Assembly (NCBI RefSeq): GCF_040436345.1
Contig: NC_133224.1
Location: forward strand, 12,329,519-12,393,518
Source of the DNA: Pagrus major
Lineage: Eukaryota > Chordata > Actinopteri > Spariformes > Sparidae
DNA: 64,000 nt
Direction: 5' to 3'
The notes under the pieces are model-generated. The model had not been told where the DNA came from. It worked only from the letters and a program-made list of their open reading frames with translations, and searched no databases. The position numbers and the translations under genes are program-made. Numbering within the stretch: position 1 is the first letter of the stretch; each line of letters starts with the position of its first letter. Shown here piece after piece: positions 4,952 through 42,724 of this stretch.

Positions 4952-6496
4952 TTAGAGTCTCTGCCACACTGGTATAGAGGTCTGTCTGGGAGCTACACCA
5001 GTGGAACAAACTGTAAAATATGAGTTTGGGTTGAGTTCCTGGCACTCTTCAGTGGTGTTCAGGCACACGAAACAGAACTCTACCTTACACCGGGGACATA
5101 TGACGTTTTTACACTGACTTCTGTTGTGCTCCACCAGCAAACCACAGGTGGGACAGGCTCGGATGGAGGGGCAGCCATCGACCCCCTCCACATCCTCGAA
5201 GACGATATCAGAACAGGTCCACAACATTTCCAGCGGGCTCTGGCAGTCATTGTTTTCACAGCGGTCTGAACGAGGAGCTGGACCTTTCCATTCCTTCAGA
5301 CACTGCCAGCAGAATATATAAAGCCTGTTTCTGTCAGCTGTGCATGCTGTGCATTGAACACTCAGATCATTGAGATCAGTCCTCACCACACGAGACTTGC
5401 AACCAGGACACTGTGAAGAGAAGTCACATGAAAAATGGAGATGTTTTAAATTGTCTCGCATGCTAAACATTGTAAACAAGTTAATATGATTTCTAAAACA
5501 GATACTTACGACTTTGACGTTCAAGTAACTCCTCGCAGCGTTACTGAATATTTTCTTCTCAAATTCTGCCATTTCTTCAGGAGTCAGAAGAGCCATTTTA
5601 CAAACCACCTCGAAGGACCACTCACCATCACAGTTAGTTTGTCCACACACAAATCCACACTTGCCCTTAAAAAGAAAATCAAAGAAAAAAAGATAGATAG
5701 ATAGATAGATAGCTTTATTAATCCACAAGGGAACTTTCACTGTCTAAGTGTACTGTTACTTCTAAGAAACAATAAAATGGTTCATAAAACATGTATTAAG
5801 TAATGGTAAAGGTTAAAAACATCAGTTGCAACTATAAATTACAATCATTTATTTAGATGACACGATACATATTATAAAGTCTTACAATATGTATATATAC
5901 ACACACACATATGTATGTATGTATGTATTAAGATATCAGAGACCCGGAAAAAACACTATGCTGCTCTGCATTTTGTCAGAATAAAGTTAAGTCCCTTTAG
6001 ATGTCTTTAAATGTCATCATGAAGGTGATGTAAACATCATACCTGGTCCAACAGCCTGCGACACCAGTCGGTGAGAGACATCGGAGTGACAGCGTGACCA
6101 CAGGGCATCTTTGCTCTGAGAGACTTGTAGTCGTTACACAAAACTATGAGACACACAAGAGAAGATGTGCAGCTATAATTAAGGACTTTTAATTTTAATA
6201 GAAGCCCTTATCAATATTTGTTCAGCTCATATCATAAATGTCAGATTTGTCTACTTACAGTCTAATTCATCATCTCCGTCCACAAATGTGAGCGTGGGGT
6301 CCTGCGGGTCATAACACTTCTCCTGGTCGCTCGTCCAATCGTCTTCTCTGTCAGCACCGTTCACCTCTTCATCGGACACAAAGTCAGATTCCCACTCATC
6401 ATCAGCCACAATTCTGCGAGGTTCTGGAGATTCATTAGTTTTAACATTTCCTCTCTGTTTTCTCTTCTTCCGTCTGGTCGACAGCTTGCTTCCCAT
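4952..6496 (-). CDS. RBR-A, RING1-IBR-RING2 E3 ligase with myristoylation-type N-terminus
   Basis: Four exons on the minus strand: 6496-6259, 6143-6043, 5665-5510 and 5410-4952. All junctions are GT-AG with continuous frame, giving 317 aa. The N-terminus MGSKLSTRRKKRKQRG fits an N-myristoylation signal followed by a polybasic patch, then an acidic linker. Residues 82-127 form an atypical RING1 (CGH...C...C). The IBR starts at CPGC (166) with regularly spaced Cys pairs. RING2 is about 251-281 (CPTCGLLVEHNRSQC...FCFVC). Cys265 occupies the position of the catalytic Cys that accepts ubiquitin as a thioester in parkin- and HHARI-type RBR ligases. It is shorter than most RBR ligases. It shares a 209-bp divergent promoter with UBL-B, so that modifier is a candidate substrate; this is inference. 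The orthologue is not identified. Confidence 0.85.
5689..5735. repeat. GATA repeat with retroelement-like tail
   Basis: (GATA)n followed by CTTTATTAATCCACAAGGGA. This resembles the 3' terminal sequence of abundant fish non-LTR elements (CTTTATTGATCCCCAAGGG). It lies in RBR-A intron 2. Confidence 0.5.
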
Positions 6497-6705
6497 GTTG
6501 ACTTACTCTCATACGCAATCCAGACTGATGAGTGCTCTGCCTTATTACTGTGAGGCGTTCGTGGTTTCTGTGAAGTCATGTGATTTGGAGTTGCCCCAGG
6601 GCAGGTGTGGCATTTTTCTTCTTCTTCTTCTTTTGACATCACTCATTGGATCATTTGCACCTGAACTAACGCACCTGAGGAGCGCTCTCCTCACCAACAG
6701 GCAAA
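6497..6705. promoter_or_regulatory. Divergent promoter of RBR-A and UBL-B, with GAS site
   Basis: The 209 bp between the two start codons must hold both promoters and 5' leaders unless distant exons exist. At 6566-6574 it contains TTCTGTGAA, a TTC-N3-GAA STAT/GAS-type site, followed by GTCATGTGAT. The same two blocks recur at the same place upstream of RBR-B and RBR-C with different central bases. No clean ISRE is seen here. Confidence 0.6.
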
Positions 6706-7306
6706 ATGGGAATCCAGCTGAAAGTACATGGACCCAAAGGAGAGGAGAAGATCATCGACCTGTGCGACAGTGACAAGGAGCTGAAGAAGATGACTGTGAC
6801 ACAGCTGAGGGTTAAAATAGGTCGAGAAATGAGGATAAGTACGTTTAAAGTCTCTTTTCTTTATCATGTTATATATTTTTTAAAATGTACTTTAATGCAG
6901 ACGGGGTAATGTTATTTAAAAATCATTCATCAATCATGTTATCATTAAAATTGACTGAAATCTAATGTTGATTTATTTCAAACAATAAATATGAGGTACA
7001 AACAGCACAGATAAATAAATCAAAGTTAATTTTTATGGTCAATAGTCAAATGAAACGTTGTTTTTTATTAGGGAAAAAGTCCTGAACAAACATGTTATCA
7101 AATCCAATTCTTGTGAATTTCCATTGAGTGAATGCTTTTTTTTTAAATTTCTATTTATTTATTTATTTATTTATTTCTCCTCAGCTGAAGATATCCGGAT
7201 AATCTTCAGGACCGAGCCTCTGGAGGAAAAATCCCTGCTGTCATCCTACGGCATCCGACACATGTCGACCATCCACACAGTACTGAAGTTACCCGGAGGC
7301 ATCTGA
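6706..7306 (+). CDS. UBL-B, one-domain ubiquitin-like modifier ending in Gly-Gly-Ile
   Basis: Two exons: 6706-6838 (donor GTACGT) and 7185-7306 (acceptor CTCAG), joined in phase 1, giving 84 aa. The whole protein is one ubiquitin-like fold. GIRHMSTIHTVLKLPGGI aligns with the last strand and tail of ubiquitin (...LVLRLRGG). The Gly-Gly is followed by a single Ile, so the product looks like a precursor needing removal of one residue before conjugation, as for ubiquitin and ISG15 precursors. ISG15 has two such domains and this has one. An AATAAA lies at 7386-7391, 80 bp after the stop. It is divergent from the RBR ligase and upstream of a USP, which fits a dedicated modifier. Target proteins and E1/E2 are unknown. 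Confidence 0.85.
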
Positions 7307-7385
7307 TGTGGACCAGACGCAGAAGAAAACACCCACAGACTAAAACACTGACATCAGAAACAAATAACGCTGAAATGAAAAAACA

Positions 7386-7391
7386 AATAAA
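7386..7391 (+). terminator. UBL-B polyadenylation signal
   Basis: AATAAA 80 bp after the UBL-B stop codon, at the usual place for a short 3' UTR. Confidence 0.6.
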
Positions 7392-9553: not shown

Positions 9554-9598
9554 CACCTAATTAAATAAGATAAAATAAAAGGAGATTCAAGAGGAAAG

Positions 9599-12500
9599 AT
9601 GAATAGCTCCAGAAAATCGACCCTCTACGACGGATTGAGAGCAGTAGCAGAGACATTTAAACAAAAAGGTAATTAGACTTAGGTGAAGTTAAGATAACTG
9701 TAGGTCACTTAGGATAGAAAACAGAAATAAAAGTAAAAGGCCCAAAATGTACATCAGAATTATTCATGTGATTGGTGTTAGTCAATTTAGTTTTGGAGAC
9801 CAATCCTTTAAATCACAACATCCATGACAAATTGTAAGGTCCCTCATGTGATTTTGTGCTGTGGTCTACTGTTGCTTATATTCTGCATATTCCTGTCATA
9901 ATCTGACATGTTTAAATTAATGGAGATGGTTTTTGACAATGCATTTTCTTTCTTTTAAGTGACTAAGCCACAGAGTGAGACACTCTATTATGGCCTGATT
10001 AATCAGGGAGCCACATGTTACCTCAACAGTGTCCTGCAAGTTCTCTTCATGACAACAGAGATCCATGACAGGTTTGAAACAGCTGCAAAACAAGTATTGT
10101 CAAGTATTAACAGAAGAGATTGTTTTGTTTGATGTGAGACTGGAAAGCCACAATCATAAAAGTCTGCCATATTATCAAGTGTACACCCATGACGTCGCAT
10201 TTTTTAGAGCCAGAAGTTACCATTTTAGACAAGAGGTGGAGGTGGGGACAAGACTGGTTGGATCTGACTGGGAACCAAATGACATGCTGTGGTAACACCT
10301 TTTCAATCACAATCACAATGGGACCATAATTTACTAAATTAACATCATGCTGTGTTGAAGAAGACTTGAAATTACCGTCGCAAACCGTAACTAACCAGGA
10401 AACTGTTTTCTGGAGTAATGTATCAAGTAAGAAGTAGGGTAATTTTCTCATAAGCTTATGTACAATCAGACTTCATTTTGGAACCAGTGGAATCGCCCTT
10501 TGCTGGCCATCAGAAGGAATGCAGGTTTAAGGAACTTCCGAATTTGGCCTCACTTTTCAGACCGGAAAGCTCCATCCATATATTATACAGTCAATGCATA
10601 TCTTTTTAAAGCTGCTGCAGATGGCACATTGGCTTTTACAGTTCAACTACATTGTCAAAAATATACAGGCTGGTGACATAAAAGCTTGTAATACAATAAG
10701 CTACCCTCTTCTCTAAAGGTTGGATCCAGAATCACAGGTCACAGATCAGGAGCTGGGAATCCTCTTTAAAAAACTAAAAGAAACAACATGTGGAACACAA
10801 AACATCACAAAGACTTTGGAGATCAAAAATGGTAAGTTGGACAGGGATCAATAGAAAAACATCAAAGAGCATCAAGATGGAGGGTCACATAGCATCTGTA
10901 GATTCACCGAAATGGATTTAGTATACTGGATTAAATCTCACGAATCATTCTGCAGTTAAGCAACAGCGTGATGCTGCCGAATGCCTGGAGTTGATTTTAC
11001 ATAAGGTCAGCCCACAGGCCTCTCAGGTGAGCACAAAAAATCTACAATGCTATTTACAGAATAACAAATCAGAATGCTTTGTGATGATAGACTTTTTTAT
11101 GCACAGGTTTTCCAAGGACAGCTGACATACACAATAAAATGCTCCAAAGGCCACATCATCAATGAAGAGACGAATCCATTCTGGACTCTTCCACTGCCGC
11201 TGAAAGATACTCATGATTCAACCTTCAGTGTGGTGAGCAGAAAAAGTTCAGAGTTCTAGTTTAGTGTTTTAATATGATGTGACCATGCTGATCTAATTTG
11301 CAATTTATTACGATATTTGTTTCCACAGGAGAGCAGCTTTAAGAGGATTTTCCAGACAAAAACATACACTGGAGACAACATGGTGTGCTGCAATGAATGT
11401 AACAAGAAGACAGTAGCAACAAGTGTGAGTTTTGACCACAAAATGAAAACACAAACTGAAGGCTGGTAATTTTTCTACTGGAATAAAATGAAAATGGCCT
11501 GTTAGTTTACAATACTGAGATAAAGGATATAGGGCTCTATTTTGCGCTTGGCGCAAAGTGGTGCACAACACACAAGAGTGTCGTTGCTAGTTTCTGACCA
11601 ATGCAGTTGTCATTTTTATGCCCAGCTGCCATGTTGTTTAAGCAGCAAATGTACTTGCGCCCATCTATGTGCTCCTGGGGGTAAGATGCGCCTACATAGA
11701 TGGCTTCACAACGCGTGTACACACAACTTTTGTGATTAGAGAGACTGCTTTCAGTAATTTTAAGCATTTCTATGTGCACAGCAGTGTCACTGCAGCAAAT
11801 AGCGTGGCACATTCAGGCAGCATAACTAAAAGCTGTAGTTATAAACCTGACAGGACAGGGGAAACTCTTCAGAGGAAGAGGCTTCTGCGAATAATATTTT
11901 TTAGACCGCTCTGATGGAGCTCAGGATTTATCAGGGGGACAGCTGCTTTACTCCGCAGGTCCGCAGGATGACACCCTTATTGATTTGTCTTATGCCCAAA
12001 ACACACCTATGACTAATTAAGAGCATACAGCCCCTTTGCGCCATGCACCTTACTTTGCACATAGGTTAACTGCCTTAAAACTAGCAAAAGGGAGTTGGAC
12101 ACACCCTAAGCTCACTTGCACCATGGACTTTAGACCATGCATCACACATCCTTGAAACAGGGGGCATAGTCTTTAATAACGTTTCTTGTGTTATTTAGGG
12201 TTGTGAGATGGTGGACTCTCCTCAGATCTTGATTCTTCTCCTCAAGAGATTTGACTTTGACTACAACACCATGTCACATTTCAAATCAGACTGCTGTGTG
12301 GAAGTGCCATGTGAATTACAGTTGAAGGCAAGGATAAGTCATTTTTATCTGTGATTTTTATTTGAATGGTCTTAATTTCTTTTAAAATCTTTTCATGTTC
12401 CTGACTGTGTTCTTCATTGTAGAACAAGACATACAAACTGTATGGGATGGTGGATCACATGGGCAGTCTAAGAGGTGGACATTACACAGCCACCATCCTA

Positions 12501-15500
12501 TCTGATGAGGACAAAAACTGGTACGAGTTTGATAATACTCGTGTCAACAAGGTAAGGAAGACTTTACTTAATCTGTTCCATTAGGATATTGCATATTCAA
12601 AACATACCAACAGAAAGATCAAACATTAAATACAATTTTGTTGTCATTGTTTTTTTGTTTTGTGCTGCAGGTTAAAGAACAGCCATTTGCAGCAACTGGG
12701 CCTTACAAGTACGTTTGATGGAACTTATTTTGTTGTATTTTATCAGTAATAATATTTGAGACGTATTAAAAAAGTATTCACTGTTTGCTGTCACCTTAAA
12801 ATTAGCTCCAGGACTGTCTATCTACTCACGTACAGAGGTAGGACTACAAGAAAACAAAAGAGTTCATTTAGGCCATTACTGTAATATTAACAGATCGTTG
12901 CTAAATATGTTTTGTCTCTTCAATTCAAAGCCGCTGAGTCGCAGATGTCCCCTGAGACGAGAAAGCTGGATGATCTGAGACAAGACGATGTGGAACCAAA
13001 GAGAAGCTTGGAAAAGGATGTTGATGATAAAGATAAGGGACAAATAAGACAGAATGACACAGATGAGTTACAGAAGACAAGTGATGAGGCATTAAGCAGT
13101 CAGACTGGAGGAGAGAAGGGTACTGCCGAAACTGAAAAGATTGTTTTGGATGATGAAGTCAGATCAGAGACTGAGCCTAAAAGTGAGCTCTTGAACAGAG
13201 AGAAGCCAAGAGAGGAGAAGGAGGATATAGCAGGAGAGTCAGAGTGTGAAAGGTTTGGATCACATGATAAAGATGATAAGTCAGATGGAGAAATAAGTCA
13301 TATCAGAGATGTAAAAACTGATGAGAACTGTGGAACAGCCAGTGAGGTAGAAAACAGTGTAGATGTAGAAGCACAGGACAATCTGAATGTAAATGTTGGA
13401 GAACAGTCGAAAGACTCCTGTGAACAACATCCTGATGAAGAGACAAAGACAGAGAAGGAGGAACAAAGAGGTAAAAAGAAGAACATGTGTCCTACTGTCT
13501 GCAATTTCTATCAAGAGAATCAGTGTGTGTCTATGGCAGCAAACAAAAATGACCACTTTTATTGACTCCATGTGATTTATTTTATACATTTAAATACATT
13601 ATGCAAAAGTGCATTGATGACCTACGTACAGTATACAAACAATATTAAAGTATCTTTTTCCAGGTTACGTTACATGGAGGTATATGTTGACATGTTTGAC
13701 TTTTTCATGTTTTCTTCCCCTCCAAGCCACAGAGTGTCAGAAGCCTGTTGAGACCACTTCAGAGGATCTGACAGAGGTGGAAGAAGAACAGGGTGAAGAT
13801 ATTGGTCCTGAAGAACTGAAAGAAGACGAAGAACCCAAAAGAAATAGCAAAAGAAACACTGATGATGAAGAAACCACACAGATGGGACATAGTGCGGAGG
13901 ATGAGGGACAGATGAGAAAAGATAGGAAGGAAGAGAGACCTCAGGCTAGTGGAGAGGAGGGTGATGCAGAAAATGTAGAGACTGACACATCAATTAATAA
14001 TCAGTCAACAGCGAGTGAAGTGAAAAGCAGTGCAGGTGAAGAGGCACAGGAAAATGAAGACAGCAACACTCAAGAAAACAGCAAGTCTGAAGAGTTAAAT
14101 GAAAGTAGAGTAGAAGATGCTTCTGTTAATGGTGGAGAACAGTCGAAAGACTCCTGTGAACAACATCTGGATGAAGAAACAAAGACAGAGAAGGAGGAAC
14201 AAAGAGGTACAAAGAAGAACACGTGTCCTACTGTCTGCAACATGTATTAAGAGAATCAGTGTGTGTCTACCACAGAATACAAAAACAACTACTTTTATTG
14301 TCTCTTTGTAATTGATGTTATACATTCAGACACTATGTAAAAGTGCATTGATGAGCTATACACAGTATACAAACAACACTCAAGTATCTATTTCACAGAC
14401 TATGTTACATAGATGTTGATATTGACATGTTTGACTTGTTCATGTTGTTTCATTACTGAATTTATTACTTTTATTTCCCTCCAAAGCCACAGAGTGTCAG
14501 AAGCCTGGTGAGACCACTTCAGAGGATCTGACAGATGAGGTGGAAGAAGAAGAGGGTGAAGATATTGGTCCTGAAGACCTGAAAGAAGACGAAGAACCCA
14601 AAAGAAATAGCAAAAAAAACACTGATGATGAAGAAACCACAGAGATGGGACATAGTGCAGAGGATGAGGGACAGATGAAAAAAGATAGGAAGGAAGAGAG
14701 ACCTCAGGCTAGTGGAGAGGAGGGTGATGCAGAAAATGTAGAGACTGACACATCAATTAATAACCAAACAACAGTGAGTGAAGTGAAAAGCAGTGCAGGT
14801 GAAGAGGCACAGGAACATGAAGACAGCAAAACACAAGAAATTAACAAGTCTGAAGAGTTAAATGAAACTAGAGTAGAAGATGCTTCTGTTAATGTTGGAG
14901 AACAGCTGAAAGACTCCTGTGAACAACCTCTGGATGAAGAGACAAAGACAGAGAAGGAGGAACAAAGAGGTACAAAGAAGAACACGTGTCCTACTGTCTG
15001 CAACATGTATTAAGAGAATCAGTGTGTGTCTACCACAGAATACAAAAACAACTACTTTTATTGTCTCTTTGTAATTGATGTTATACATTCAGACACTATG
15101 TAAAAGTGCATTGATGAGCTATACACAGTATACAAACAACACTCAAGTATCTATTTCACAGACTATGTTACATAGATGTTGATATTGACATGTTTGACTT
15201 GTTCATGTTGTTTCATTACTGAATTTATTACTTTTATTTCCCTCCAAAGCCACAGAGTGTCAGAAGCCTGGTGAGACCACTTCAGAGGATCCGACAGACG
15301 AGGTGGAAGAAGAACAGGGTGCAGATATTGGTCCTGCAGAACTGAAAGAAGACGAAGAACCCAAAAGAAATAGCAAAAGAAACACTGATGATGAAGAAAC
15401 TACACAGATGGGACATAGTGCAGAGGATGCGGGACAGATGAGAAAAGATAGAAAGGAAGAGAGACCTCAGGCTAGTGGAGAGGAGGGTGATGCAGAAAAT

Positions 15501-16903
15501 GTAGAGACTGACACATCAATTAATAATCAGTCAACAGTGAGTGAAGTGAAAAGCAGTGCAGGTGATGAGGCACAGGAAAATGAAGACAGCAACACACGAG
15601 AAAACAACAAGTCTGAAGAGTTAAATGAAACTAGAGTAGAAGATGCTTCTGTAAATGTTGGAGAACAGCTGAAAGACTCCTGTGAACATCTGGATGAAGA
15701 GACAAAGACAGAGAAGGAGGAACAAAGAGGTACAAAGAAGAACACGTGTCCTACTGTCTGCAACATGTATTAAGAGAATCAGTGTGTGTCTACCACAGAA
15801 TACAAAAACAACTACTTTTATCGTCTCTTTGTAATTGATGTTATACATTCAGACACTCTATGTAGAAAGTGCATTGATGAGCTATACACAGTATACAAAC
15901 AACACTCAAGTATCTATTTCACAGACTATGTTACATGGATGTTAATATTGACATGTTTGACTTGTTCATGTTGTTTCATTACTGAATGTATTACTTTTAT
16001 TTCCCTCCAAAGCCACAGAGTGTCAGAAGCCTGGTGAGACCACTTCAGAGGATCCGACAGACGAGGTGGAAGAAGAACAGGGTGAAGATATTGGTCCTGC
16101 AGAACAGAAAGAAGACGAAGAGCCCAAAAGAAATAGCAAAAGAAACACTGATGATGAAGAAACCACACAGATGGGACATAGTGCAGAGGATGAGGGACAG
16201 ATGAGAAAAGATAGGAAGGAAGAGGGACTTCAGGCTAGTGGAGAGGAGGGTGGCGCAGAAAATGTAGAGACTGACACATCAATTAATAACCAAACAACAG
16301 TGAGTGAAGTGAAAAGCAGTGCAGGTGAAGAGGCACAGGAACATGAAGACAGCAAAACACAAGAAATTAACAAGTCTGAAGAGTTAAATGAAACTAGAGT
16401 AGAAGATGCTTCTGTTAATGTTGGAGAGCAGTTGAAAGACTCCCGTGAACAACATCTGGATGAAGAGACAAAGACAGAGAAGGAGGAACAAAGAGGTAAA
16501 ATGAAGAACATGTGTCCTACTTTCTGCAACATTCATTAAGAGAAAAAGTGTGTGTCTTTGGCAGCATACAAAACAGACCACTTTCATTGGCTCTCAGCGA
16601 TTTATTTCATAAATTCAGATGTATTATGTAAGAGTGAAAATAGCACAAGAGGTTGTTTTCCAAACCTACATCACACAGGACTATATGCTGACATTTGGGG
16701 GCTGTAAATCATGATCATTACTTAATTTATTACTTTTCTTGCACTTCAAAGCCACAGACTGTCAAAAGCCAGTTGAGACCACTTCACAAGATGTGACAGA
16801 CGAGGTGAAAGAAGAACAGGGTGAAGATAAACTGAAAGGAGACGAAGTGGAACACAATAGAAAAGTAGGAGAAATAGACACTGGTGGTGAAGAGACAGAG
16901 TGA
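9599..16903 (+). CDS. USP-A, ubiquitin-specific protease with tandem acidic exons
   Basis: Sixteen exons, about 1177 aa. Exons: 9599-9668, 9960-10071, 10719-10831, 10956-11026, 11107-11232, 11329-11424, 12199-12327, 12423-12551, 12671-12708, 12806-12837, 12931-13470, 13727-14206, 14487-14969, 15250-15729, 16013-16495 and 16752-16903. Residues 24-305 are a compact USP domain: Cys box GLINQGATCYLNSVLQVLF (Cys43), a CNEC pair in a small zinc-finger-like loop, and a His box GGHYTA (His259) followed by WYEFDN. All key residues are present, so it should be an active cysteine protease that removes ubiquitin or a ubiquitin-like protein. The Cys box resembles USP47-type enzymes more than I can prove. 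The remaining 870 residues are Glu/Lys/Asp-rich and come from duplicated phase-1 exons. Intron 7 uses a GC donor. There is no transmembrane tail, unlike USP-C. ATTAAA at 17263 is a possible poly(A) signal. Confidence 0.83.
11531..12150. mobile_element. Probable non-autonomous DNA transposon in USP-A intron 6
   Basis: It begins GGGCTCTATTTTGCGCTTGG and is rich in GCGC/GCGCA-type motifs, ending near ATGGACTTTAGACCATGC. This opening is typical of a widespread fish MITE group. I did not identify exact terminal repeats or a target duplication. Confidence 0.4.
13727..16495 (+). repeat. Four tandem 763-bp exon-plus-intron units in USP-A
   Basis: Exons 12-15 start at 13727, 14487, 15250 and 16013 (spacing 760, 763, 763) and are 480, 483, 480 and 483 bp long. 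Both the exons and the roughly 280-bp introns between them are nearly identical, so the unit duplicated as genomic DNA, recently. Every exon starts with CC and ends with G (phase 1 to phase 1), so any copy number keeps the frame. Each encodes about 160 residues of acidic repeat beginning ATECQKPVETTSEDLT and ending EETKTEKEEQRG. Exons 11 and 16 are older, diverged members. Confidence 0.9.
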
Positions 16904-18821: not shown

Positions 18822-20310
18822 TCAATTAACAGAATATGTCCTGTGCCACACAGGTATAGATCTCTGCCTGGGTGTTACACCAATGGGGCAAAGATTGTAT
18901 GGGTTTATCTTCAGACACTCTTCGGTGATCTTCAGGCACACGAAACAGAATTTCACCTTACACCGGGGACAGATCATGCTTTTACACTGATTTTTGTTAT
19001 GCTCTACCAGCACACCACAAGTGGGACAGGCACGGATGGAGGGACAGCCGTTGACCACCTTCACATCCTTGAAGATGATATTCGGACAGTTCCTCAATAT
19101 GTCCAAAGGATCTGGGCAGCCGTCATTGTCACAGCGGTCTGAACGAGGAGCCCATCCTTTCCATTCCCTCAAACACTGCCAGCAGAACCTATAAGTCCTT
19201 CCCTTGCTAGCTGTGCACACCGGGCACTCTACATTCAGATTGGAGAGATCGTTTCTCACCACACGAGACTTGCAACCAGGACACTGTGAAGAGAAAATGA
19301 ATTAGATGTTTTTAAATTGACTGTTGTAGTCACATGTGCAACTATTTAATGTTAACAAGCAAATAAAAACAGAATACACTTACTTGTTTGATGTCCAAGA
19401 AATTCTTCGCAGCATTGTGGAACATTTTCTTCTCAAATTCTTCCACTTCTTCAGGAGTCAGAAGAGCCATTTTACAAACCTCCTCGAAGGACCACTCAAC
19501 GTCACAGTTACCACACGCAAATTCACACTTGCCCTTAAAGAGAAAATCAAAGAAAAAACTTTAAAGAGTGAAAAAGAAAACAGTGAGCAAATTCTTCAGC
19601 AGCTGCAAACTATTGCTTTAATGGTTTACTACAACTAACCAACGTCAATGTCAAGTGCAAAGTATATTTACCCAGATATAATGAAACCGTCTAAATGAAA
19701 CCGTCGCTCTCCATTTTGTCAGTTTAGTAAGTTTAGTCCTCATCAATGTCACTGAATTTCATCATGAAGGTGTAATCGTACCTCCTCATCCAACAGCCTG
19801 AGACACCAGTCAGTGAGAGACATCGGAGTGACAGCATGACCACAGGACATCTTTGCTCTGCGAGACCTGTAGTCGTTACACAAAACTACGAAACAAACAC
19901 AAGCTATGATTAACAACTTAAAAATCAGTAGGGAAACTAAATCCTCTGTAATAGAAGCTCTTATTTGTATTTGTTCAGCTCATCTACTTACAGTCCATTT
20001 CATCTTCTCCATCTACAAATGTGAGCGTGGGGTCTTGAGGGTCATAACACTTCTCCTCGTAAGTTGTCCAACTCCTGCTGTCTTCAGAGATCTCATCATG
20101 AGCGACAACGTTGACTTCATGGGACACAAAGTTGTCTCTATGAGACACATTGTCATATGTGTCAGGCACAACGTGGTCTCTGTAAGTCGAAACATCAAAT
20201 CCTTCGTAATCCAACGCAGCAGCCTCATTTCTGGGTGGTTCTGGAGGTCTAATCTTAACTCTTTTTTTGAATTCCTTCTTCTTCCGTCTGATTGACAGTT
20301 TGCCTCCCAT
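18822..20310 (-). CDS. RBR-B, RING1-IBR-RING2 E3 ligase
   Basis: Four exons on the minus strand: 20310-19992, 19885-19782, 19533-19384 and 19283-18822. GT-AG junctions and continuous frame give 344 aa. The N-terminus MGGKLSIRRKKKEFKKR is again a myristoylation-type start with a polybasic patch. It is followed by a long linker with short internal repeats (NVSHRDN, FVSHEVN, VVAHDE) and then the conserved YEEKCYDPQDPTLTFVDG block. The RING1-like region is about 108-155, the IBR starts at residue 192, and RING2 holds the expected catalytic Cys291 in CPTCGVLVEHNKNQC. Two residues are missing from the CGQTNCD loop of RBR-A. Exon 1 is the longest of the three paralogues. The zinc-binding core is conserved and looks functional. 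No UBL gene follows it on the opposite strand. Confidence 0.83.
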
Positions 20311-20460
20311 GTTGACTCAGTATGCTACACTCCCATGCAACTGACTGACTGACTGACTGCTCCACTTTAAAGGGATAGTCTGCCTGAGGTGTGATCGTCC
20401 TCTTCCGTGAAGTCATGTGATCCGAAGATGGTATCTGAGTGTGTGACTGCAACCAAAGAA
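20311..20460. promoter_or_regulatory. RBR-B promoter with GAS site
   Basis: TTCCGTGAA at 20403-20411 is a TTC-N3-GAA site followed by GTCATGTGAT, in the same relative place as at RBR-A and RBR-C. The plus-strand UBL that would normally read away from here is absent. Confidence 0.55.
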
Positions 20461-29061: not shown

Positions 29062-30986
29062 TCATCTCCTCCGCCACACAGGTATAGATCTCTGTCTGGG
29101 TGCTACACCAGTGGGGCAAAGACCGTATGCGTTTTGCTGCAGACAGCCCTTGTTTGATTTCAGGCACACGAAACAGAATTTCACCTTACACCGACGACAG
29201 ATCATGCTTTTACACTGTTTTTTGTTATGCTCTACCAGCATACCACAAGTGGGACAGGCACGGATGGAGGGGCAGCCGTTGACCCCCTTCACATCCTTGA
29301 AGACGATATTCGGACAGTTCCTCAATATGTCCAAAGGATCTGGGCAGCCGTCATTGTCACAGCGGTCTGAGCGAGGAGCCCGACCTTTCCATTCCCTCAA
29401 ACACTGCCAGCAGAACCTATACGTCCTTCTCTTGCTAGCTGTGCACACCGTGCACTCTACATTCAGATTGGAGAGATCCTTTCTCACCACACGAGACTTG
29501 CAACCAGGACACTTTGAAGAGAAGTCACATGGAAAATGAATGAGAATGAGAAACTATTTATTGTTAACAAGGAAATTTGAATCCTAAAAACAGAATACAC
29601 TTACTTGTTTGATGTCCAAGTAACTCTTCGCAGCGTTGTGGAACATTTTCTTCTCAAATTCTTCCACTTCTTCAGGAGTCAGAAGAGCCATTTTAGAAAC
29701 CTCGTCGAAGGTCCACTCAACATCACAGTTAGTTTGGCCACACACAAATTCACACTTGCCCTTCAAAAGAAAAACAAAGAAAAACCTTTGAAGGGGCAGT
29801 GTGTATTTTCTGAAATGAAATTCACACTCAGAATTTTAACATTTAAATATTAATGAGATAATAATACAAACTCATAAATGTGTATTTTTTTCTTTAACCG
29901 AATAAACAAGTTGTTCTCAGAGGAAATAAGGTCCCCAGAACACTTTTTGAAGCTAGAAAGGTGGCAGGGTCCGCCACATATATACAAAGTAAAACATTAT
30001 GAAATGGTGTTGTCTTCTAAGGTTCATTTGTTTAATCAGTTTATCCAGTCATGAAAATAAAAAAAATGTTTATTTAGTTTGTTTTACTTCCTCAAAACTA
30101 CATAGTGCACCTTTAAATGTGGAAAAAAAAAATACTGAACCATTTTTACAACGACTGCCAACTATTGCTTTTATGATTTATTGCTATTAGGAACAACAAC
30201 AGCGTCAATTTCAAAATATTACCTTCCCCCTGAAAATAAAGCTTTTGTATTGTCTATCAGCTGAGGAGTCACTTTATGTCACTTTGATATCTTGATATAA
30301 ATATTTGGTAACATTTTATAATATAATATAAACTATTTATTAACAATTGTTTATTGGAAAGTTGCAACTGATGTTCGTGATAATAAATACTATGTAGTTC
30401 ATTTATAAACATTATTTGGATGAGTTGCAACTGATGTTTTTTAACCTTTACAATTACTTAATGAATGTTTTATGAACCATTTTATTGTTTTTCAACAGTA
30501 AAATAACTATAAATGTATCATTTATTAATAATGATTATTATTATAAAGTGTTAATATCCAATTTCCATAGATATTATGTCCTTGGCAATTATAGTTCCTG
30601 TCAAAATGCAGAGAAATGCACAGATTTATACTACAGTCTTCATAATGTTCTGATGGATGGGTGAGGGTGGGGGTGGGGGGCATGACCTCAGTTTGTCTAA
30701 AATCCTACAGCCCTGTATGTAAATACAGTTTTATTACACAAGCAGCCGCTTTCCACTCAAGAAATGAAATAATTCAGTAACACGTCTGTAAATGTCACGA
30801 TGAAGGTGTAAACATCATACCTCGTCCAACAACCTGCGACAATGATCGGTGAGAGACATCGGAGTGACAGCGTGACCACAGGACATCTTTGCTCTGAGAG
30901 ACTTGTAGTCGTTACACAAAACTATGAGACACACAAGAAAAGATGTGCAGCTACGATTAAGGACTTGTAATTCAATAGTGTGTAAA

Positions 30987-31073
<87 letters not shown>

Positions 31074-31278
31074 AATAATAAAGGAAGGGAAAAGGAAATG
31101 TGAAAAGTGAAATTGTACTCGACTACTTACAGTCTAATTCATCTTCTCCGTCTACAAATCTAAGCGTGCGGTCCTTTGGGTTATAACACTTCTCCTCTGA
31201 GGTTGTCCTCGTCCTGACATGTTCTCTCTGTCTCTCTCTCTCTGTCCTCTCCTTGCGTTTGGATAATTTGCCTCCCAT
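29062..31278 (-). CDS. RBR-C, RING1-IBR-RING2 E3 ligase, short N-terminus
   Basis: Four exons on the minus strand: 31278-31131, 30921-30821, 29760-29605 and 29511-29062, giving 284 aa. Exon 1 encodes only 49 residues and begins MGGKLSKRKERTERERQREH, so the myristoylation-type start and the basic run are kept while the linker is shortest. The conserved KCYNPKDRTLRFVDGEDELD block follows. In RING1, TDWC of the other copies is TDHC. The IBR starts at residue 136 and the expected catalytic Cys235 sits in CPTCGMLVEHNKKQC. One RING2 position reads ICRRC instead of ICPRC. All Zn-binding Cys in IBR and RING2 appear present. Intron 1 carries a 94-bp AAT repeat and intron 2 a MITE and repeat family 2. 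Confidence 0.83.
29790..30116 (+). mobile_element. MITE family 1, full-length copy in RBR-C intron 2
   Basis: The left end GAAGGGGCAGTGTGTA and right end CTACATAGTGCACCTTTAA enclose the shared centre GGTGGCAGGGTCCGCCACAT. Confidence 0.75.
30300..30555. repeat. AT-rich repeat family 2
   Basis: Close match to 21300-21480, including TTGGATGAGTTGCAACTGATG and AATGTTTTATGAACCATTT. Confidence 0.65.
30987..31080. repeat. (AAT)n microsatellite
   Basis: About 31 trinucleotide units with one interruption, in intron 1 of RBR-C. Confidence 0.95.
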
Positions 31279-31529
31279 GTCGACTCACGATGTTTACCCT
31301 CTGACATGAAACACCGTCTGATTACTGCTCGGCCTTATCACTGACAGGCTGTGAGGCGTTCAGGGTTTCCCTGAAGTCATGTGATTTGAAGTTGCCCGAG
31401 GTGACTCGTTGTTTTCTTTCTGCTTTTATCTTTAACATAATTTAAAGGCTTGTTTGTACCTGAACTAACACACCTGAGGAGCACACAGAGTCGAGGATAG
31501 TGGTCGCACTGAACGGGCTCAGTGGCAAA
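31279..31529. promoter_or_regulatory. Divergent promoter of RBR-C and broken UBL-C, with GAS site
   Basis: TTCCCTGAA at 31367-31375 (TTC-N3-GAA) and the adjoining GTCATGTGATTTGAAGTTGC match the RBR-A/UBL-B promoter. The CACCTGAGGAGC block that precedes UBL-B is also conserved. Confidence 0.55.
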
Positions 31530-31697
31530 ATGAGAATCCAGCTGAAAGTGTGTGCTGTGTATTTCTGCTGTGTATTTCTACTGAGTGCTGTGTATTTCTA
31601 CTGTGTTTTTTACTGTGTGCTGTGTGTTTCTACTGTGTATTTCCACTGTGTGCTGTGTTTCTACTGTGTATTTGTACTGTGTGCTGTGTATTTATAG
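31500..31697 (+). pseudogene. UBL-C, start of a UBL gene overwritten by minisatellite
   Basis: ATGAGAATCCAGCTGAAAGT at 31530 matches the UBL-B start (MGIQLKV against MRIQLKV), with a conserved promoter upstream. After seven codons the homology ends and minisatellite sequence begins. The frame stays open to a TAG at 31695-31697, with an in-frame upstream ATG at 31500, so a promoter-driven transcript would encode a short Cys-, Val-, Phe- and Tyr-rich hydrophobic peptide. I see no second UBL exon on the far side of the minisatellite. Confidence 0.7.
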
Positions 31698-34600
31698 TGT
31701 GTATTTCTACTGTGTGCTGTGTAATTCCACTGTGTATTTCTACTGGTAATGTATATTTATAATCTGTACTGTGTACTTTGTATTCATAGTGTATTGTGTA
31801 TGTATACTGTGTGCTGTGTATTATTACTTTGTAATGTGTATTTATACTATGTACTCTGTTTTTATACTGTGTGATGTGTATTTATACTGTGTGATGTGTA
31901 TTTCTACAGTGTGATGTGTATTTCTATTGTGTGAGGTTTATTTCTGCTGTGCATTTCTACTGTGTACTGTCTATTTCTACTGTGTATTTCTACTGTGTAT
32001 TTCTATTGTGTATTTCTACTGTCTATTTCTACTGTGTGATGTGTACTTCTACTGTGTGAGGTTTATTTCTACTGTGTATTTCTATTGTGTGATGTGTATT
32101 TCTACTGTGTTAGGTTTATTTCTGCTGTGAATTTCTACTGTGTACTGTGTATTTCTACTGTGTATTTCTATTGTGTATTTCTACTGTGTGATGTGTACTT
32201 CTACTGTGTGAGGTTTATTTCTACTGTGTATTTCAATTGTGTATTTCTACTGTCTATTTCTACTGTGTGATGTGTATTTCTACTGGTTGAGGTTTATTTC
32301 TACTGTGTATTTCTACTGTCTATTTCTACTATGGGATGTGTATTTCTACTGTGTGAGGTTTATTTCTACTGCGTATTTCTATTGTGTATTTTTACTTTCT
32401 ATTTTTACTGTGTGATGTGTATTTCTACTGTGTGAGGTTGATTTCTACTGTGTATTTCTATTGTGTGATGTGTATTTCTACTGTGTGAGGTTTATTTCTG
32501 CTGTGAATTTCTACTGTGTACTGTGTATTTCCACTGTGTATTTCTATTGTGTATTTCTACTGTGTGATGTGTGATTCTACTGTGTGAGGTTCAGTTCTGC
32601 CGTGCATTTCTACTGTGTATTTGTACTGTGTACTGTGTATTTCTACTGTGTGAGGTTTATTTCTGCTGTGTATTTCTACTGTGTATTTGTACTGTGTATT
32701 TCTATTGTGCATTTCTACTGTGTGCTGTGTATTTCTACTGTGTATGTCTACTGTGTATTTCTACTGTGTGTTGTGTATTTCTACTGTGTAGTTCTACTGT
32801 GTATTTCTACTATGCATTTCTACTGTGTGGTGTGTATTTCTATTGTGTATTTCTACTGTCTATTTCTATTGTGTGACGTGTATTTCTACTGTGTGAGGTT
32901 TATTTCTACTGTGTATTTCTACTGTGTATTTCTATTGTGTATTTCTACTGTGTATTTCTACTGTGTGAGGTTTATTTCTGCTGTGTATTTCTACTGTGTA
33001 TTTGTACTGTGTATTTCTATTGTGCATTTCTACTGTGTGCTGTGTATTTCTACTGTGTATGTCTACTGTGTATTTCTACTGTGTGTTGTGTATTTCTACT
33101 GTGTAGTTCTACTGTGTATTTCTGCTATGCATTTCTACTGTGTGGTGTGTATTTCTATTGTGTATTTCTACTGTCTATTTCTATTGTGTGACGTGTATTT
33201 CTACTGTGTGAGGTTTATTTCTACTGTGTATTTCTACTGTGTATTTCTATTGTGTATTTCTACTGTGTATTTCTACTGTGTATTTCTACTGTGTGAGGTT
33301 TATTTCTACTGTTTTTTCTACTGTGTTTTTCTACTGTGTATTTCTATTGTGCATTTCTACTGTGTGCTGTGTATTTCTACTGTGTGTTGTGTATTTCTAC
33401 AATGTAGTTCTACTGTGTATTTCTACTGTGTGGTGTGTATTTCTACTGTGTATTTCTATTGTGTATTTCTACTGTCTATTTCTATTGTGTGACGTGTATT
33501 TCTACTGTGTGAGGTTTATTTCTACTGTGTATTTCTACTGTGTTTTTCTACTGTGTGAGGTTTATTTCTACTGTGTATGTCCACTGTGTATTTCTACTGT
33601 GTGTTGTGTATTTCTACAATGTAGTTCTACTGTGTATTTCTACTGTGTGGTGTGTATTTCTACTGTGTATTTCTACTGTGTTTTTCTACTGTCTATTTCT
33701 ATTGTGTGATGTGTATTTCTACTGTGTGAGGTTTATTTCTACTGTGTATTTCTACTGTGTGAGGTTTATTTCTACTGTGTATTTCTACTGTGTGAGGTTT
33801 ATTTCTACTGTGTATTTCTACTGTGTATTTCTATTGTGTATTTCTACTGTCTATTTCTATTGTGTGACGTGTATTTCTACTGTGTGAGGTTTATTTCTGC
33901 TGTGAATTTCTACTGTGTACTGTGTATTTCTACTGTGTATTTCTATTATGTATTTCTACTGTGTGATGTGTATTTCTACTGTGTGAGGTTCAGTTCTGCC
34001 GTGCATTTCTACTGTGTATTTGTACTGTGTACTGTGTATTTCTACTGTGTGAGGTTTATTTCTGCTGTGTATTTCTACTGTGTTTTTCTACTGTGTATTT
34101 CTATTGTGCATTTCTACTGTGTGCTGTGTATTTCTACTGTGTGTTGTGTATTTCTACAGTGTAGTTCTACTGTGTATTTCTACTATGCATTTCTACTGTG
34201 TGGTGTGTATTTCTACTGTGTATTTCTACCGTCTATTTCTATTGTGTGACGTGTATTTCTACTGTGTGAGGTTTATTTCTACTGTGTATTTCTACTGTGT
34301 ATTTCTATTGTGTATTTCTACTGTGTATTTCTACTGTGTGAGGTTTATTTCTACTGTTTTTTCTACTGTGTTTTTCTACTGTGTATTTCTATTGTGCATT
34401 TCTACTGTGTGCTGTGTATTTCTACTGTGTATGTCCACTGTGTATTTCTACTGTGTGTTGTGTATTTCTACAATGTAGTTCTACTGTGTATTTCTACTGT
34501 GTGAGGTTTATTTCTACTGTTTTTTCTACTGTGTATTTCTATTGTGCATTTCTACTGTGTGCTGTGTATTTCTACTGTGTATGTCCACTGTGTATTTCTA

Positions 34601-36450
34601 CTGTGTGTTGTGTATTTCTACTGTGTGGTGTGTATTTCTACTGTGTATTTCTATTGTGTATTTCTACTGTCTATTTCTATTGTGTGACGTGTATTTCTAC
34701 TGTGTGAGGTTTATTTCTACTGTGTATTTCTACTGTGTATTTCTATTGTGTGACGTGTATTTCTACTGTGTGAGGTTTATTTCTACTGTGTATTTCTACT
34801 GTGTATTTCTATTGTGTATTTCTACTGTGTATTTCTACTGTGTGAGGTTTATTTCTACTGTTTTTTCTACTGTGTTTTTCTACTGTGTATTTCTATTGTG
34901 CATTTCTACTGTGTGCTGTGTATTTCTACTGTGTATGTCCACTGTGTATTTCTACTGTGTGTTGTGTATTTCTACAATGTAGTTCTACTGTGTATTTCTA
35001 CTGTGTGAGGTTTATTTCTACTGTTTTTTCTACTGTGTTTTTCTACTGTGTATTTCTATTGTGCATTTCTACTGTGTGCTGTGTATTTCTACTGTGTATG
35101 TCCACTGTGTATTTCTACTGTGTGTTGTGTATTTCTACTGTGTGGTGTGTATTTCTACTGTGTATTTCTATTGTGTATTTCTACTGTCTATTTCTATTGT
35201 GTGACGTGTATTTCTACTGTGTGAGGTTTATTTCTACTGTGTATTTCTACTGTGTTTTTCTACTGTGTGAGGTTTATTTCTACTGTGTATGTCCACTGTG
35301 TATTTCTACTGTGTGTTGTGTATTTCTACAATGTAGTTCTACTGTGTATTTCTACTGTGTGGTGTGTATTTCTACTGTGTATTTCTATTGTGTATTTCTA
35401 CTGTCTATTTCTATTGTGTGACGTGTATTTCTACTGTGTGAGGTTTATTTCTACTGTGTATTTCTACTGTGTTTTTCTACTGTGTGAGGTTTATTTCTAC
35501 TGTGTATGTCCACTGTGTATTTCTACTGTGTGTTGTGTATTTCTACAATGTAGTTCTACTGTCTATTTCTATTGTGTGATGTGTATTTCTACTGTGTGAG
35601 GTTTATTTCTACTGTGTATTTCTATTGTGTATTTCTACTGTCTATTTCTATTGTGTGACGTGTATTTCTACTGTGTGAGGTTTATTTCTACTGTGTATTT
35701 CTATTGTGTATTTCTACTGTCTATTTCTATTGTGTGACGTGTATTTCTACTGTGTGAGGTTTATTTCTACTGTGTATTTCTACTGTGTTTTTCTACTGTG
35801 TATTTCTACTGTGTGAGGTTTATTTCTACTGTGTATTTCTACAGTGTGAGGTTTATTTCTACTGTGTATTTCTACTGTGTATTTCTATTGTGTGACGTGT
35901 ATTTCTACTGTGTGAGGTTTATTTCTACTGTGTATTTCTACTGTGTTTTTCTACTGTGTATTTCTATTGTGTATTTCTACTGTGTGCTGTGTATTTCTAC
36001 TGTGTATGTCTACTGTGTATTTTTACTGTGTGCTCTGTATTTCTACAGTGTATTTCTACTGTATGAGGTGTATTTCTGCAGTGTATTTCTACTGTGTGCT
36101 GTGTGTTTCTATTGTGTATTTCTACTGTGTGCTGTGTATTATTACTGTGCAATGTGTATTTCTACTGTGTGCTGTGTGTTTCTACTGTGCAGTTCTACTG
36201 TGTATTTCTACCATGCATTTCCACTGTGTATTTCTACTGTGTGCTGTGTTTCTACTGTGTATTTCTACTGTGTGCTGTGTATTTCTACTGTGTGAAGTGT
36301 ATTTCTGCAGTGTATTTCTACTGTGTATTTCTATTGTGTGCTGTGTATTTCTACTGTGTGCTGTGTGTTTCTACTGTGCAATGTGTATTTCTACTGTGTG
36401 CTGTGTATTTCTACTGTTCATTTCCACTGTGTGCTGTGTGTTTCTACTGA
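31551..36450 (+). repeat. 4.9-kb minisatellite of 13-bp TGTATTTCTACTG units
   Basis: The unit TGTATTTCTACTG and close variants (TGTGAGGTTTATT, TGTGCTGTGTATT) fill the interval with almost no other sequence. Larger blocks repeat too: the same run of variants occurs at 32652 and 32967, 315 bp apart. Because 13 is not a multiple of three and the unit holds no stop in any plus frame, long open frames (up to about 300 codons) appear in all plus frames. They are not genes. Confidence 0.95.
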
Positions 36451-39255: not shown

Positions 39256-42200
39256 ATGAGTAACTCCAGGAAACGACCCCTGGAGGAAGGGAAGTCTGCA
39301 TCAGAGAAGAGGAAAGCAAAAGGTAATAAAGACTGATAATAACATATTCCTGTCATAATCTAACATTTATAAATTAATGAAGATGGTGTAATGACACTGT
39401 GTTTTTCTTTCTTTGAAGTGACTCAGCCACAGAGACTTCATAATGGCCTTTATAATCAAGGAAACACATGTTACCTCAACAGTGTCCTGCAAGTTCTCTT
39501 CATGACGACAGATTTCCACGAAAGGTTTGAAACAGCTGTTTTTATCAGTAGCAAAGTTGCAAGACAATTATGACAAGTGTTAACAGAGAACATTTAGTAG
39601 AGTGATACATCTGAGTGTATCCAGTCGTCAGTGCTGTTTGATGAGGAGATAATCTGTTCAAAGAAAAGGCAAATCAAGTATTCTAATCTTTGATTTGTTT
39701 AGTCAAATTTCAGCTTCTTCAATTAAGGTGCTTCACAGACATTTACAGGCTTCTCTAGTTCTCTAACATTAGAAAACATATACATGCTGGTAGTGTCCAA
39801 AGCTTGTAATCCAGTAAACTACCCTCTCTCCAAAGGTTGGATCCAAAATCAAAGATCACAGACAAGGAGCTGAGGAAAATCTTTGAAAAACTGAAAGTAA
39901 CAACATGTGGAACAGAAAACATTGCAAAAGCTTTTGAGATTAAAAATGGTAAGTTGACCAGTGATCAATAGTACAAAAGGGACGGTCATATAGCAGCTGT
40001 AGATTAACTGAAATGCTTTGGTGGATTGAGTATACTGGATTAAATCTCATGAATCATTCTGCAGTTAATCAACAAAGTGATGCTGCTGAATGCCTGGAGT
40101 TGATTTTACACAAGGTCAGCCAACGGGCCTCTAAGGTGAGCACTTAGTAAAGCAAAAGTGTAAGTAACAGGTCAATAAATGTGAATGTTGTGTTGTAACT
40201 GATATATCTTTCTCAAGGTTTTCCAAGGACAGCGGACATACACAACAAAGTGCTCCAAAGATCACGTCATCAATGAAGAGACAAATCCATTCTGGACTCT
40301 TCCACTGCCACTGAAAGATATCCAGGATTCAACCTTCAGTGTGGTGAGCAGATAGTTCAGAGTCAAGAAGTCTGGAAGGAGGAAAATTAAATAAATATAG
40401 TGTTTGTAATGTTTGCATTGTTTTTGTTGGTGCATAAATGTAAGTGGCATAGAGCCAGTCTGTCTGCTCTATCTAATGATACCAGCTTACACAGACAATG
40501 AATGAGAAGGGGGCTGCTATAGCAACATAATCTTCACCTGAAACTAACTGCTGGTGACAACATAACTACGTATAAATACCAAAAGTTCAGTATGTTTTTT
40601 AATTAATGCAACAATTGTGTTTCTACAGGAAGGAGGCTTTCAGAGTATTTTCCAAACAAAAACATTCAATGGAGACAACATGGTGTACTGCAACGAATGT
40701 AAAAAGAAAAGAGATGCAACCAGTGTAAGTTTCCATCACAAAAGTTAAGTTTCCAAACATCAACTATGACTTGAACGAATGTTTTCAGGGGGGGTTTGCA
40801 GCAAAAATGGCTGATTTCATGTCAGCTTCTCTGAAAATACTGCGATGCATGTTGCAACGTTTTAGATGTGTTTTTGCAATGAAATAGCAGGAGCAAGAGA
40901 AAATTGTCAAACTAGAAAGTAGGTTTGGTGACGTACACGTACGGCTCATCGGTTTGCACAGGGGACTATTATGATTGGTGGAACCCATTGGAAACTAAGA
41001 TGATTGGTAAAATTTGCGGGAAAGTGGCTGTGATCTTACAACATTGCAAGGTTGTTCAGAATTCTGGTGGGATTGGATTAATTGCAGCGTCGCAAAAGCT
41101 TTTGAATGTTTGTTTACAATTGTGTTTTTTAGGGATGTGAGATGACAGAGTTCCCTCGGAACTTGATTCTACTCCTCAAGAGATTTGACTTTGACTACAA
41201 CACCATGTCACATTTCAAATCAGACTGCTGCGTGGAAGTGCCATGTGAATTACAGTTGAAGGCAAGGAAAAGTCATTTTTATACGTAATTTTCACTTGAA
41301 TGGTCTCAGTTGCTTTTAAAATCATTTCATGTACCTGACTGTGTTCTTCATTGTAGAACAAGAAGTACAAACTGTATGGGATGGTGAATCACACGGGCAG
41401 TCTAAGAGGTGGACATAACACAGCCACCATCCTGTCCAAAGAGGACGACACCTGGTACGAGTTTGATGACACTCATGTCAGAAAGGTGAGGGACAATTTA
41501 ACTCATCCATCAGTTTGACCAATGTCAAAAAAATGTAATTTTAAATAGATGTTTGTTGAACGTTGCTCTTGTTTTTGCAGGTTAAAGAACAACCATTTGC
41601 ACAAACCAGGACTCACAAGTATGTTTGATTATTTCCATTTAATCAAGTCTGACATAGTTGAAGGAACAGTCTTACCACAAGGTGTCAGAGCTTTCCATTG
41701 CTTCATAAAGTCTTCAGCAAATAGAGTATGTCTGCCCAGTTTTAAAGGAATAGTGGAAAAACTCTGGCCATATTCTCCAAATAACACCTCTAAAGTTGCT
41801 GAGAAAACCATGTGATATGATTGAAAGCTTCAGAACAGCTACACTGTTAAATGGACCTTCTGGTGACATTGTAATGTCAACTTCTCATGCCAACTATATA
41901 TTCTATTATCTATCTGGAAATGTTTGCTGTATGTTCTCAACTTTTTGCTGCTTTGTGCAACGATAACTTCAATATGACTGTTCAACAGTTCCTGCATTGC
42001 ATATCTGCTCTTGTACAGAGGTAAGATCACGAAAGTGCATCAAGAAATCTTCAAAGCATGTAATATTTACAGATAATTAATCAATATATGACTTTTCTTC
42101 TACTTGAAGCCTCACGGAGTCAGAGAGACGAGGGGAGAGAACGACAGGATGAAACTGGTCATCTGGATCAACAGACGGGACACAAAGTGGAACACAAAAG

Positions 42201-42724
42201 AAGATTCAGGGAAAGTGCAGGTGATAAAGAAAACAGACAAGCTCAAGACAGTCGAGAACAGATGAGAAAAGAGAGGAACAAAGAGTCATTCAGCCATCAC
42301 TACAGAGGAGAGGGGGGTCATCCAGAGCATGAAAAGAAAGTTTCAAGCTTCACCAGGGACCAGCACAGGGCCCCAGCAGAAGAAGATGTTTTCCTCCTTA
42401 AAAAACAAACCACAGCCTACTCCAGTAAACAACACCCAGACAGTAGGACAAAGCCAGATAAGAGGATACAAATGAGCAAAAAAGAGGAAGGTGAGGTGAA
42501 AAAGTCTGTAAAATGAATCCCTCTTCATTAAAAGTGTTTGTCTGAGGAAAATAACATGTGAATGTCTGACTTTCCCATCAGATGTGAATTCTGCGCAACC
42601 CTGCGCAAGTCCAGCTGACATCCTGAAGAATCCTCTTGTTATCGGTCTCATCGTTGTTGGTGTTGTTGTTGTTGCATTAATTGTGATCCTTCCTATTACT
42701 CTATCAACTCCAAACCAACCTTGA
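39256..42724 (+). CDS. USP-C, ubiquitin-specific protease with C-terminal membrane anchor
   Basis: Twelve exons, 476 aa: 39256-39322, 39419-39524, 39836-39948, 40065-40135, 40218-40343, 40629-40724, 41133-41261, 41357-41485, 41581-41618, 41989-42020, 42110-42490 and 42582-42724. Cys box GLYNQGNTCYLNSVLQVLF (Cys40) and CNEC pair are intact. The His box is GGHNTA (His256), where the aromatic Tyr usual after His is Asn. WYEFDD is kept. Intron 7 uses a GC donor. After the USP fold (ending SCIAYLLLYR) comes about 125 residues of charged linker. The last exon encodes a hydrophobic helix of about 23 residues (VIGLIVVGVVVVALIVILP, about 448-470) and only six residues after it, which is the form of a tail-anchored protein with its protease domain in the cytosol. 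It is the only USP copy here that keeps this anchor. Confidence 0.83.

Follow-up and report, generated by a model that had tools for sequence, protein, structure and literature searches.

Can a ubiquitin-like modifier, a ligase to attach it and a protease to remove it be encoded side by side as one gene cassette in a fish genome? The question is raised by a stretch of 64,000 nucleotides from Pagrus major (NC_133224.1, positions 12,329,519 to 12,393,518; hereafter the window, in which positions are counted from its first base), where a first-pass annotation had noted a triplicated block of RBR E3 ligases, ubiquitin-like proteins (UBLs) and USP proteases and had likened it to a self-contained modification system. 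That observation was right, and the locus is larger than first noted: the gene structure, domains, catalytic residues, Gly-Gly end, recurrent linkage and common promoter element are all directly visible in the DNA. The best reading, which we put at a probability of roughly 0.45, is that the cassette would serve as an interferon-gamma-inducible system of UBL conjugation and deconjugation; this interpretation is plausible, and its biochemical core is what we infer.

The spliced models were assembled manually by comparing the units with one another and then checked for open frames, and they are to be read as predicted genes. Introns are GT-AG throughout, except for a single GC-AG intron (USP intron 7, common to all three USPs), and eight open spliced genes with consensus splice sites lie in the window. 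These genes and the associated features are as follows.

1460..2245, minus strand: UBL_A, exons 2245-2110 and 1659-1460, 111 amino acids, LKLPGRGPG plus a tail, without terminal Gly-Gly; left of the span first annotated
4952..6496, minus strand: RBR_A, RBR E3 ligase, exons 6496-6259, 6143-6043, 5665-5510 and 5410-4952, 317 amino acids, start MGSKLS, open model with IBR domains
6706..7306, plus strand: UBL_B, exons 6706-6838 and 7185-7306, 84 amino acids, end LKLPGGI, open model, Pfam ubiquitin
9599..13565, plus strand: USP_A, 11 coding exons, 516 amino acids, acidic tail, UCH domain E 1.3e-36
13621..16900, plus strand: repeated acidic tail exons downstream of USP_A, four similar copies and one diverged piece
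18822..20310, minus strand: RBR_B, exons 20310-19992, 19885-19782, 19533-19384 and 19283-18822, 344 amino acids, start MGGKLS, open model with IBR domains
23396..26896, plus strand: USP_B, 11 coding exons, 402 amino acids, UCH domain E 9.1e-40
29062..31278, minus strand: RBR_C, exons 31278-31131, 30921-30821, 29760-29605 and 29511-29062, 284 amino acids, start MGGKLS, open model with IBR domains
31524..31549, plus strand: relic of a UBL start in unit C, ATG at 31530, 25 of 26 bases identical to UBL_B (E 2.9e-6), cut by a minisatellite
31549..36449, no strand assigned: minisatellite array (4.9 kb) at the UBL site of unit C, beginning where the relic ends
39256..42724, plus strand: USP_C, 12 coding exons, 476 amino acids, the last exon (42582-42724) encoding a hydrophobic C-terminal stretch, UCH domain E 7.5e-37

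Unit A is composed of RBR_A, UBL_B and USP_A, unit B of RBR_B and USP_B, and unit C of RBR_C, USP_C and the 26-base relic. The arrangement claimed for each unit, an RBR on the minus strand and a USP on the plus strand, is borne out by open spliced models for all six genes. The locus is thus triplicated with respect to ligase and protease but not modifier, since the three units hold one intact UBL. In unit A the UBL_B start at 6706 stands head to head with the RBR_A ATG at 6496 across 209 bp, and with the relic in unit C this confirms that two units have, or once had, a UBL facing the E3. Searches of unit B with tblastn and blastn turned up no UBL.

All three window RBRs contain IBR_1 and IBR domains by Pfam. 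A profile of seven RBR exon-4 sequences matches the RING2 of ARIH1 (E 0.001 and 0.0044) and ARIH2 (E 0.028) with the catalytic Cys aligned, while RBR_A alone gave no PDB match at 1e-3. The Cys at the ARIH1-aligned position is invariant across the seven aligned copies, as would be expected of the intact ligase first described. With IBR domains and a RING2 bearing its catalytic Cys, the predicted ligases are members of the RBR E3 superfamily, differing from ARIH1 and ARIH2 in being short and in having no Ariadne domain by Pfam. An AlphaFold2 model of RBR_A exon 4, made from the seven-row alignment, had a mean predicted local distance difference test score (pLDDT) of 40 and was unusable. The start MG(S/G)KLS, which we take to be a myristoylation-like motif, is probably not ancestral, because only the window RBRs have it and the copies at 12.313, 20.82 and 8.92 Mb of the same contig were assigned other starts by assumption.

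The protease claim likewise stands, since each of the three window USPs has a UCH domain in which both the Cys box and the His box are present (the His box of USP_C reads GGHN). The closest PDB chain to USP_A is USP47 (E 2e-23), and on domain content the predicted proteases are members of the USP (UCH) superfamily. Confidence in the USP models is lower at their C-terminal ends, where further acidic exons may be spliced onto USP_A and USP_B. USP_C terminates in NPLVIGLIVVGVVVVALIVILPIT, which is hydrophobic and by eye resembles a membrane anchor; tblastn with its last exon returned nothing similar elsewhere in the window. No viral or bacterial relatives of the RBRs were confirmed in IMG/VR and GTDB contigs, nor viral relatives of the USPs in IMG/VR, scans made for these two enzymes.

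UBL_B matches the Pfam ubiquitin family barely above the cut-off (E 7.7e-6, 26.0 bits against 25.4), and UBL_A matches it at E 2.7e-8; residues 29/30 to 83/84 of UBL_B align with ubiquitin and with the second domain of ISG15. The UBL_B tail does contain the Gly-Gly first reported (LKLPGG), but it does not end there: an Ile follows, so processing is needed. A ubiquitin-type domain with a Gly-Gly exposed by processing, as in a conjugated modifier, is present in the UBL_B model, and UBL_A has the domain without the Gly-Gly. The possibility that the UBL is ISG15 itself was considered and rejected. ISG15 has two ubiquitin-like domains and an LRLRGG tail, whereas UBL_B has a single domain and LKLPGG, and five two-domain ISG15-like frames of 163-178 amino acids, taken to be the ISG15 copies, sit in tandem on another contig (C5, 37.166-37.179 Mb). 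Judged by its domain and tail, UBL_B belongs to the ubiquitin family and has a Gly-Gly that processing could expose, and it is not ISG15. The second exon was read in 11 UBL copies, the two window models included; all four with short tails keep Gly-Gly followed by one to three residues (LKLPGGI, VKLPGGI, LKLPGGI and IKVPGGLTA), and they are otherwise diverged to 46-57% identity with UBL_B.

Is this grouping of genes peculiar to the window? One genome (786 Mb in 25 contigs) was searched, with matches counted at exon level as lower bounds. Every one of the 25 RBR_A matches at E <= 1e-3 falls on C10, the chromosome-sized contig that carries the window. UBL_B gave 34 matches at E <= 1, of which 19 fall on C12 and C13 in frames of tandem ubiquitin and the remaining 15, not polyubiquitin, are all on C10 (two of them weak, E 0.47 and 0.82). 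For USP_B, 52 of 57 matches are on C10, and the other five, on C4, C20 and C23, are weak (best 1.9e-4). The background for IBR_1 is 22 genome matches, with 18 on other chromosomes and four on C10, all within cassette regions.

Five C10 regions, chosen because the searches had matched there, were mapped by tblastn. At 8.915-8.931 Mb the order is UBL (plus, one stop), RBR (minus), a USP piece, UBL (plus) and USP (plus), so that the triad RBR(-)-UBL(+)-USP(+) is repeated at 8.918-8.929 Mb, 3.4 Mb from the window, at an identity to unit A of 67-68% in RBR exon 4, 46-48% in the UBL and 49% in the USP. The stretch at 12.312-12.322 Mb carries UBL(-), RBR(+), UBL(-), USP pieces and RBR pieces, and 12.27-12.31 Mb holds tandem minus-strand USPs with six recognisable Cys boxes, one copy being cut short; at least five have a full Cys box and acidic tail exons, with no adjoining RBR. 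At 20.82-20.83 Mb (8.5 Mb from the window) there are RBR(-), USP(+) and a decayed UBL(+), at 21.44-21.45 Mb an RBR with stops together with UBLs in decay, and at 10.95 Mb only UBLs. With 12.22-12.39 Mb taken as one region, all three gene kinds occur in three of the five regions and RBR with UBL in four, some copies being decayed; these are not independent trials because the regions have a duplication history in common. Downstream of the 8.92-Mb USP lies an open lysine- and acid-rich frame of 696 amino acids (L022:1404-3491) with no Pfam match, which is probably the C-terminal tail of that USP.

The linked genes also have regulatory DNA in common, in the form of an E-box joined to a STAT1-type gamma-activated site (GAS). 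In the window, this element and a sequence resembling an interferon-stimulated response element (ISRE) are placed as follows.

6497..6705, no strand assigned: promoter region common to RBR_A and UBL_B, 209 bp, E-box and GAS-type element at 6566-6582
20403..20419, minus strand: E-box and GAS-type element in the RBR_B promoter
31367..31383, minus strand: E-box and GAS-type element in the RBR_C promoter
2329..2339, no strand assigned: ISRE-like CTTTCACTTTC upstream of UBL_A

The pattern CACRTGAYTTCNNNGAA occurs in all seven aligned RBR/UBL promoters (units A, B and C, and 12.313, 12.317, 20.82 and 8.92 Mb), with its GAS part 61-141 bp upstream of an RBR start that is assumed for the four copies outside the window. 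Its flanks in the 8.92-Mb promoter are hardly alignable with the others, and the 12.317-Mb promoter keeps the element though its RBR is no longer intact. UBL and RBR have a single promoter region between them in unit A and again in the 12.313-Mb copy. Genome-wide the pattern has 63 sites, against 57 for the reversed control, and eight of the 63 fall in the 264 kb of cassette regions where 0.02 would be expected, an enrichment that is descriptive only, since the copies have a common origin and seven of them served to define the pattern. The eighth site precedes the 8.92-Mb USP, a stretch left out of the pattern definition. That promoter and the one of the 8.92-Mb RBR have 271 bp (86%) and 75 bp (89%) in common, the latter holding E-box, GAS and ISRE, and only the 75-bp part counts as promoter duplication since the 271-bp part belongs to a dispersed repeat of the window. 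ISRE-like CTTTCACTTTC appears at four places in UBL_A-type stretches, 84-89 bp ahead of the start in two, and one ISRE-like site lies upstream of USP_C.

The dispersed repeat stands between the units in both orientations (3240-3366, 9364-9552, 27369-27478, 29869-30084 and 36512-36624) and also precedes the 8.92-Mb RBR and USP. Elsewhere, C12:28.19-28.37 Mb carries 12 copies of the E-box and GAS combination within some 180 kb, 11 of which read TTCACAGAA. The idea that the combination marks other immune genes was dropped after one 6-kb stretch there, holding two copies, showed no recognisable gene among seven frames of at least 100 amino acids, which were inspected with no family search made.

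For RBR exon 4 (21 pairs from seven copies, one saturated), omega, the ratio of replacement to silent change, is 0.15-0.41 in 19 of 20 computable pairs and 0.71 in the young pair RBR_B/RBR_C; the window USP pairs give 0.42, 0.45 and 0.64, and four of six UBL pairs 0.17-0.46, with one saturated. The young UBL pair at 12.312 and 12.316 Mb shows 15.5 replacement against 0.5 silent differences, spread over 14 codons and including charge reversals in exon 1, with little change in the intron and flanks (16 of 254 coding versus 12 of 763 non-coding bases, p = 2e-4; replacement sites versus non-coding, p = 5e-5). When the coding changes are taken by themselves, their share of replacements does not reach significance (p = 0.13), and gene conversion may be an alternative to diversifying selection. 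We advance only tentatively the wider proposal that ray-finned fishes possess a dedicated, interferon-gamma-controlled UBL system, with linked modifier, ligase and protease, apart from ISG15 and with its modifier under diversifying selection in an arms race.

The remainder of the window includes a 173-bp tandem satellite of about 36 copies within strong positive GC skew (45269-51535), a P-element-like transposase frame of 293 amino acids with TNP-like RNase H and GTP-binding insertion domains (54518-55399), and an open hAT-type transposase frame of 709 amino acids on the minus strand (57066-59195; DUF4371, hAT dimerisation).

How might such a cassette work? STAT1, joined by IRFs and by a factor that binds the E-box, for instance USF, would activate the common promoter. 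The USP would trim the UBL precursor after Gly-Gly, removing one Ile, or LTA in an old copy. Charging would fall to cellular activating (E1) and conjugating (E2) enzymes encoded outside the cassette; neither is among the genes modelled, and the term self-contained is not supported. The RBR could then accept the UBL on its RING2 Cys and transfer it to targets, perhaps at membranes, a site proposed because the window RBRs begin with MG(S/G)KLS and USP_C has a hydrophobic C-terminus, and the USP would take the UBL off again. Induction in Pagrus major, charging, transfer, cleavage, membrane site and target are steps that we infer.

The ubiquitin-like modifiers known to be tied to interferon in vertebrates are few, namely ISG15 and FAT10. 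The cassette resembles the set of ISG15, UBA7/UBE2L6/HERC5 and USP18 in combining an interferon-linked modifier with a ligase and a protease, and the comparison drawn earlier is apt at this level of logic; it gives the impression of a second counterpart, so far undescribed, to antiviral ISG15 tagging. It differs in having one UBL domain split by an intron, an LKLPGG tail, an RBR rather than a HECT ligase, and linked genes. All three site kinds of mammalian CIITA promoter IV are found in the 8.92-Mb RBR and USP promoters, in what we take to be a different order and spacing. According to passages of PMC6540827, promoter IV combines GAS, E-box (CACGTG) and ISRE, its GAS being TTCNNNNGAA versus TTCNNNGAA here, and no GAS or E-box is reported there for grass carp CIITA.

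For two of the gene kinds the fish literature offers candidates. In the passages concerned, the Atlantic salmon RBR clade ARIT responds to interferon-gamma with log2 fold changes of 13.45/11.59 and a USP18-like clade, reported as sister to USP18, with 4.93 (PMC12234341). ARIT is an RBR that has neither a membrane domain nor other additional domains and goes under RNF144 or ARI5 in fish annotations, and the salmon USP18-like/USP47-like proteins are related to USP47, much as USP_A is closest to USP47 among PDB chains, whereas the window USPs have acidic tails and USP_C a hydrophobic end; the ARIT passages make no mention of a linked UBL or USP (PMC12234341). Matched by description, the RBR and the USP may belong to clades named in 2025. 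In trout, a single table of genes changed by parasite infection lists LOC110500498 (RNF144A-A, 5.2) and LOC110500501 (USP47-like, 3.1) (PMC8467531), near-consecutive identifiers that hint at linkage there, and LOC110500498 appears among virus-stimulated genes in at least three leukocyte populations in the portion of PMC11258392 consulted. The passages retrieved from open-licence PubMed Central literature contain no description of the UBL or the three-gene linkage.

Several points weigh against a conjugation system. Block duplication alone can explain the linkage. In units B and C no intact UBL stands beside the RBR and USP, at least five further USPs left of the window also have none, and the 21.45-Mb RBR contains stops, with no E-box and GAS element across the 20 kb read around this eighth copy. 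Within the UBL survey, four of 11 copies lack Gly-Gly (UBL_A, with LKLPGR, and those at 20.833, 21.444 and 21.448 Mb), three bury the motif ahead of a long tail (LKLPGGGG, LRMPGGGG and LRLRGG), and Pro replaces the Arg74 of ubiquitin in seven of eight readable tails. On the enzyme side, Pfam recognises no RING1 in the window RBRs, where a Cys/His-rich stretch occupies the expected position, and the first zinc pair of the window USPs has lost one Cys that the 8.92-Mb USP keeps. The promoter pattern was derived from related promoters; its E-box is CACATG in the three window RBRs versus the canonical CACGTG in the other four, and the element is missing within 500 bp upstream of the first coding exon in all three window USPs. 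The suggested identity with ARIT and USP18-like genes rests on descriptions.

The main rival, possible if somewhat doubtful in our view, makes of these points an interferon-induced ubiquitin-pathway cluster without a common modifier, in which the RBR uses and the USP removes ubiquitin or ISG15, the UBL is a mere neighbour, and the linkage arose when an interferon-responsive region was duplicated in blocks. The nearness of the USP to USP47 with its motifs kept, the ISG15-like frames at C5:37.17 Mb and the persistence of RBR and USP copies without an adjoining UBL fit it; it is less at ease with three pathway gene kinds, a Gly-Gly modifier among them, that stay grouped despite high divergence, and with a UBL and RBR under one promoter region at two places. 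Parkin is regulated in cis by its own Ubl domain, and such control of RBR ligases by ubiquitin-like folds lends some credit to an unconjugated UBL, acting in trans on the RBR or occupying the USP as a product. UBL_A, open and with an ISRE-like site yet without terminal Gly-Gly, would suit that role, but all four short-tailed UBLs keep Gly-Gly despite divergence in the remainder of the protein, and we regard this role as unlikely. That this is a tandem array in decay, retaining little function, is very improbable: broken copies certainly exist (the 21.45-Mb RBR, the unit C UBL, RBR pieces near 12.32 Mb and the UBLs at 20.83 and 21.44 Mb), but so do eight open spliced genes in the window and low omega in nearly all RBR pairs. 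Taken together, linkage beyond the block, the Gly-Gly kept in the short-tailed UBLs, the kept catalytic residues and the common promoter element support a linked system, to the extent stated at the outset.

If this reading is true, the cassette would be a rare case in which the pairing of enzymes with their modifier can be read from a genome, through the linked ligase and protease. It might also assign a function to two interferon-gamma-responsive clades of fish genes that have had no known role.

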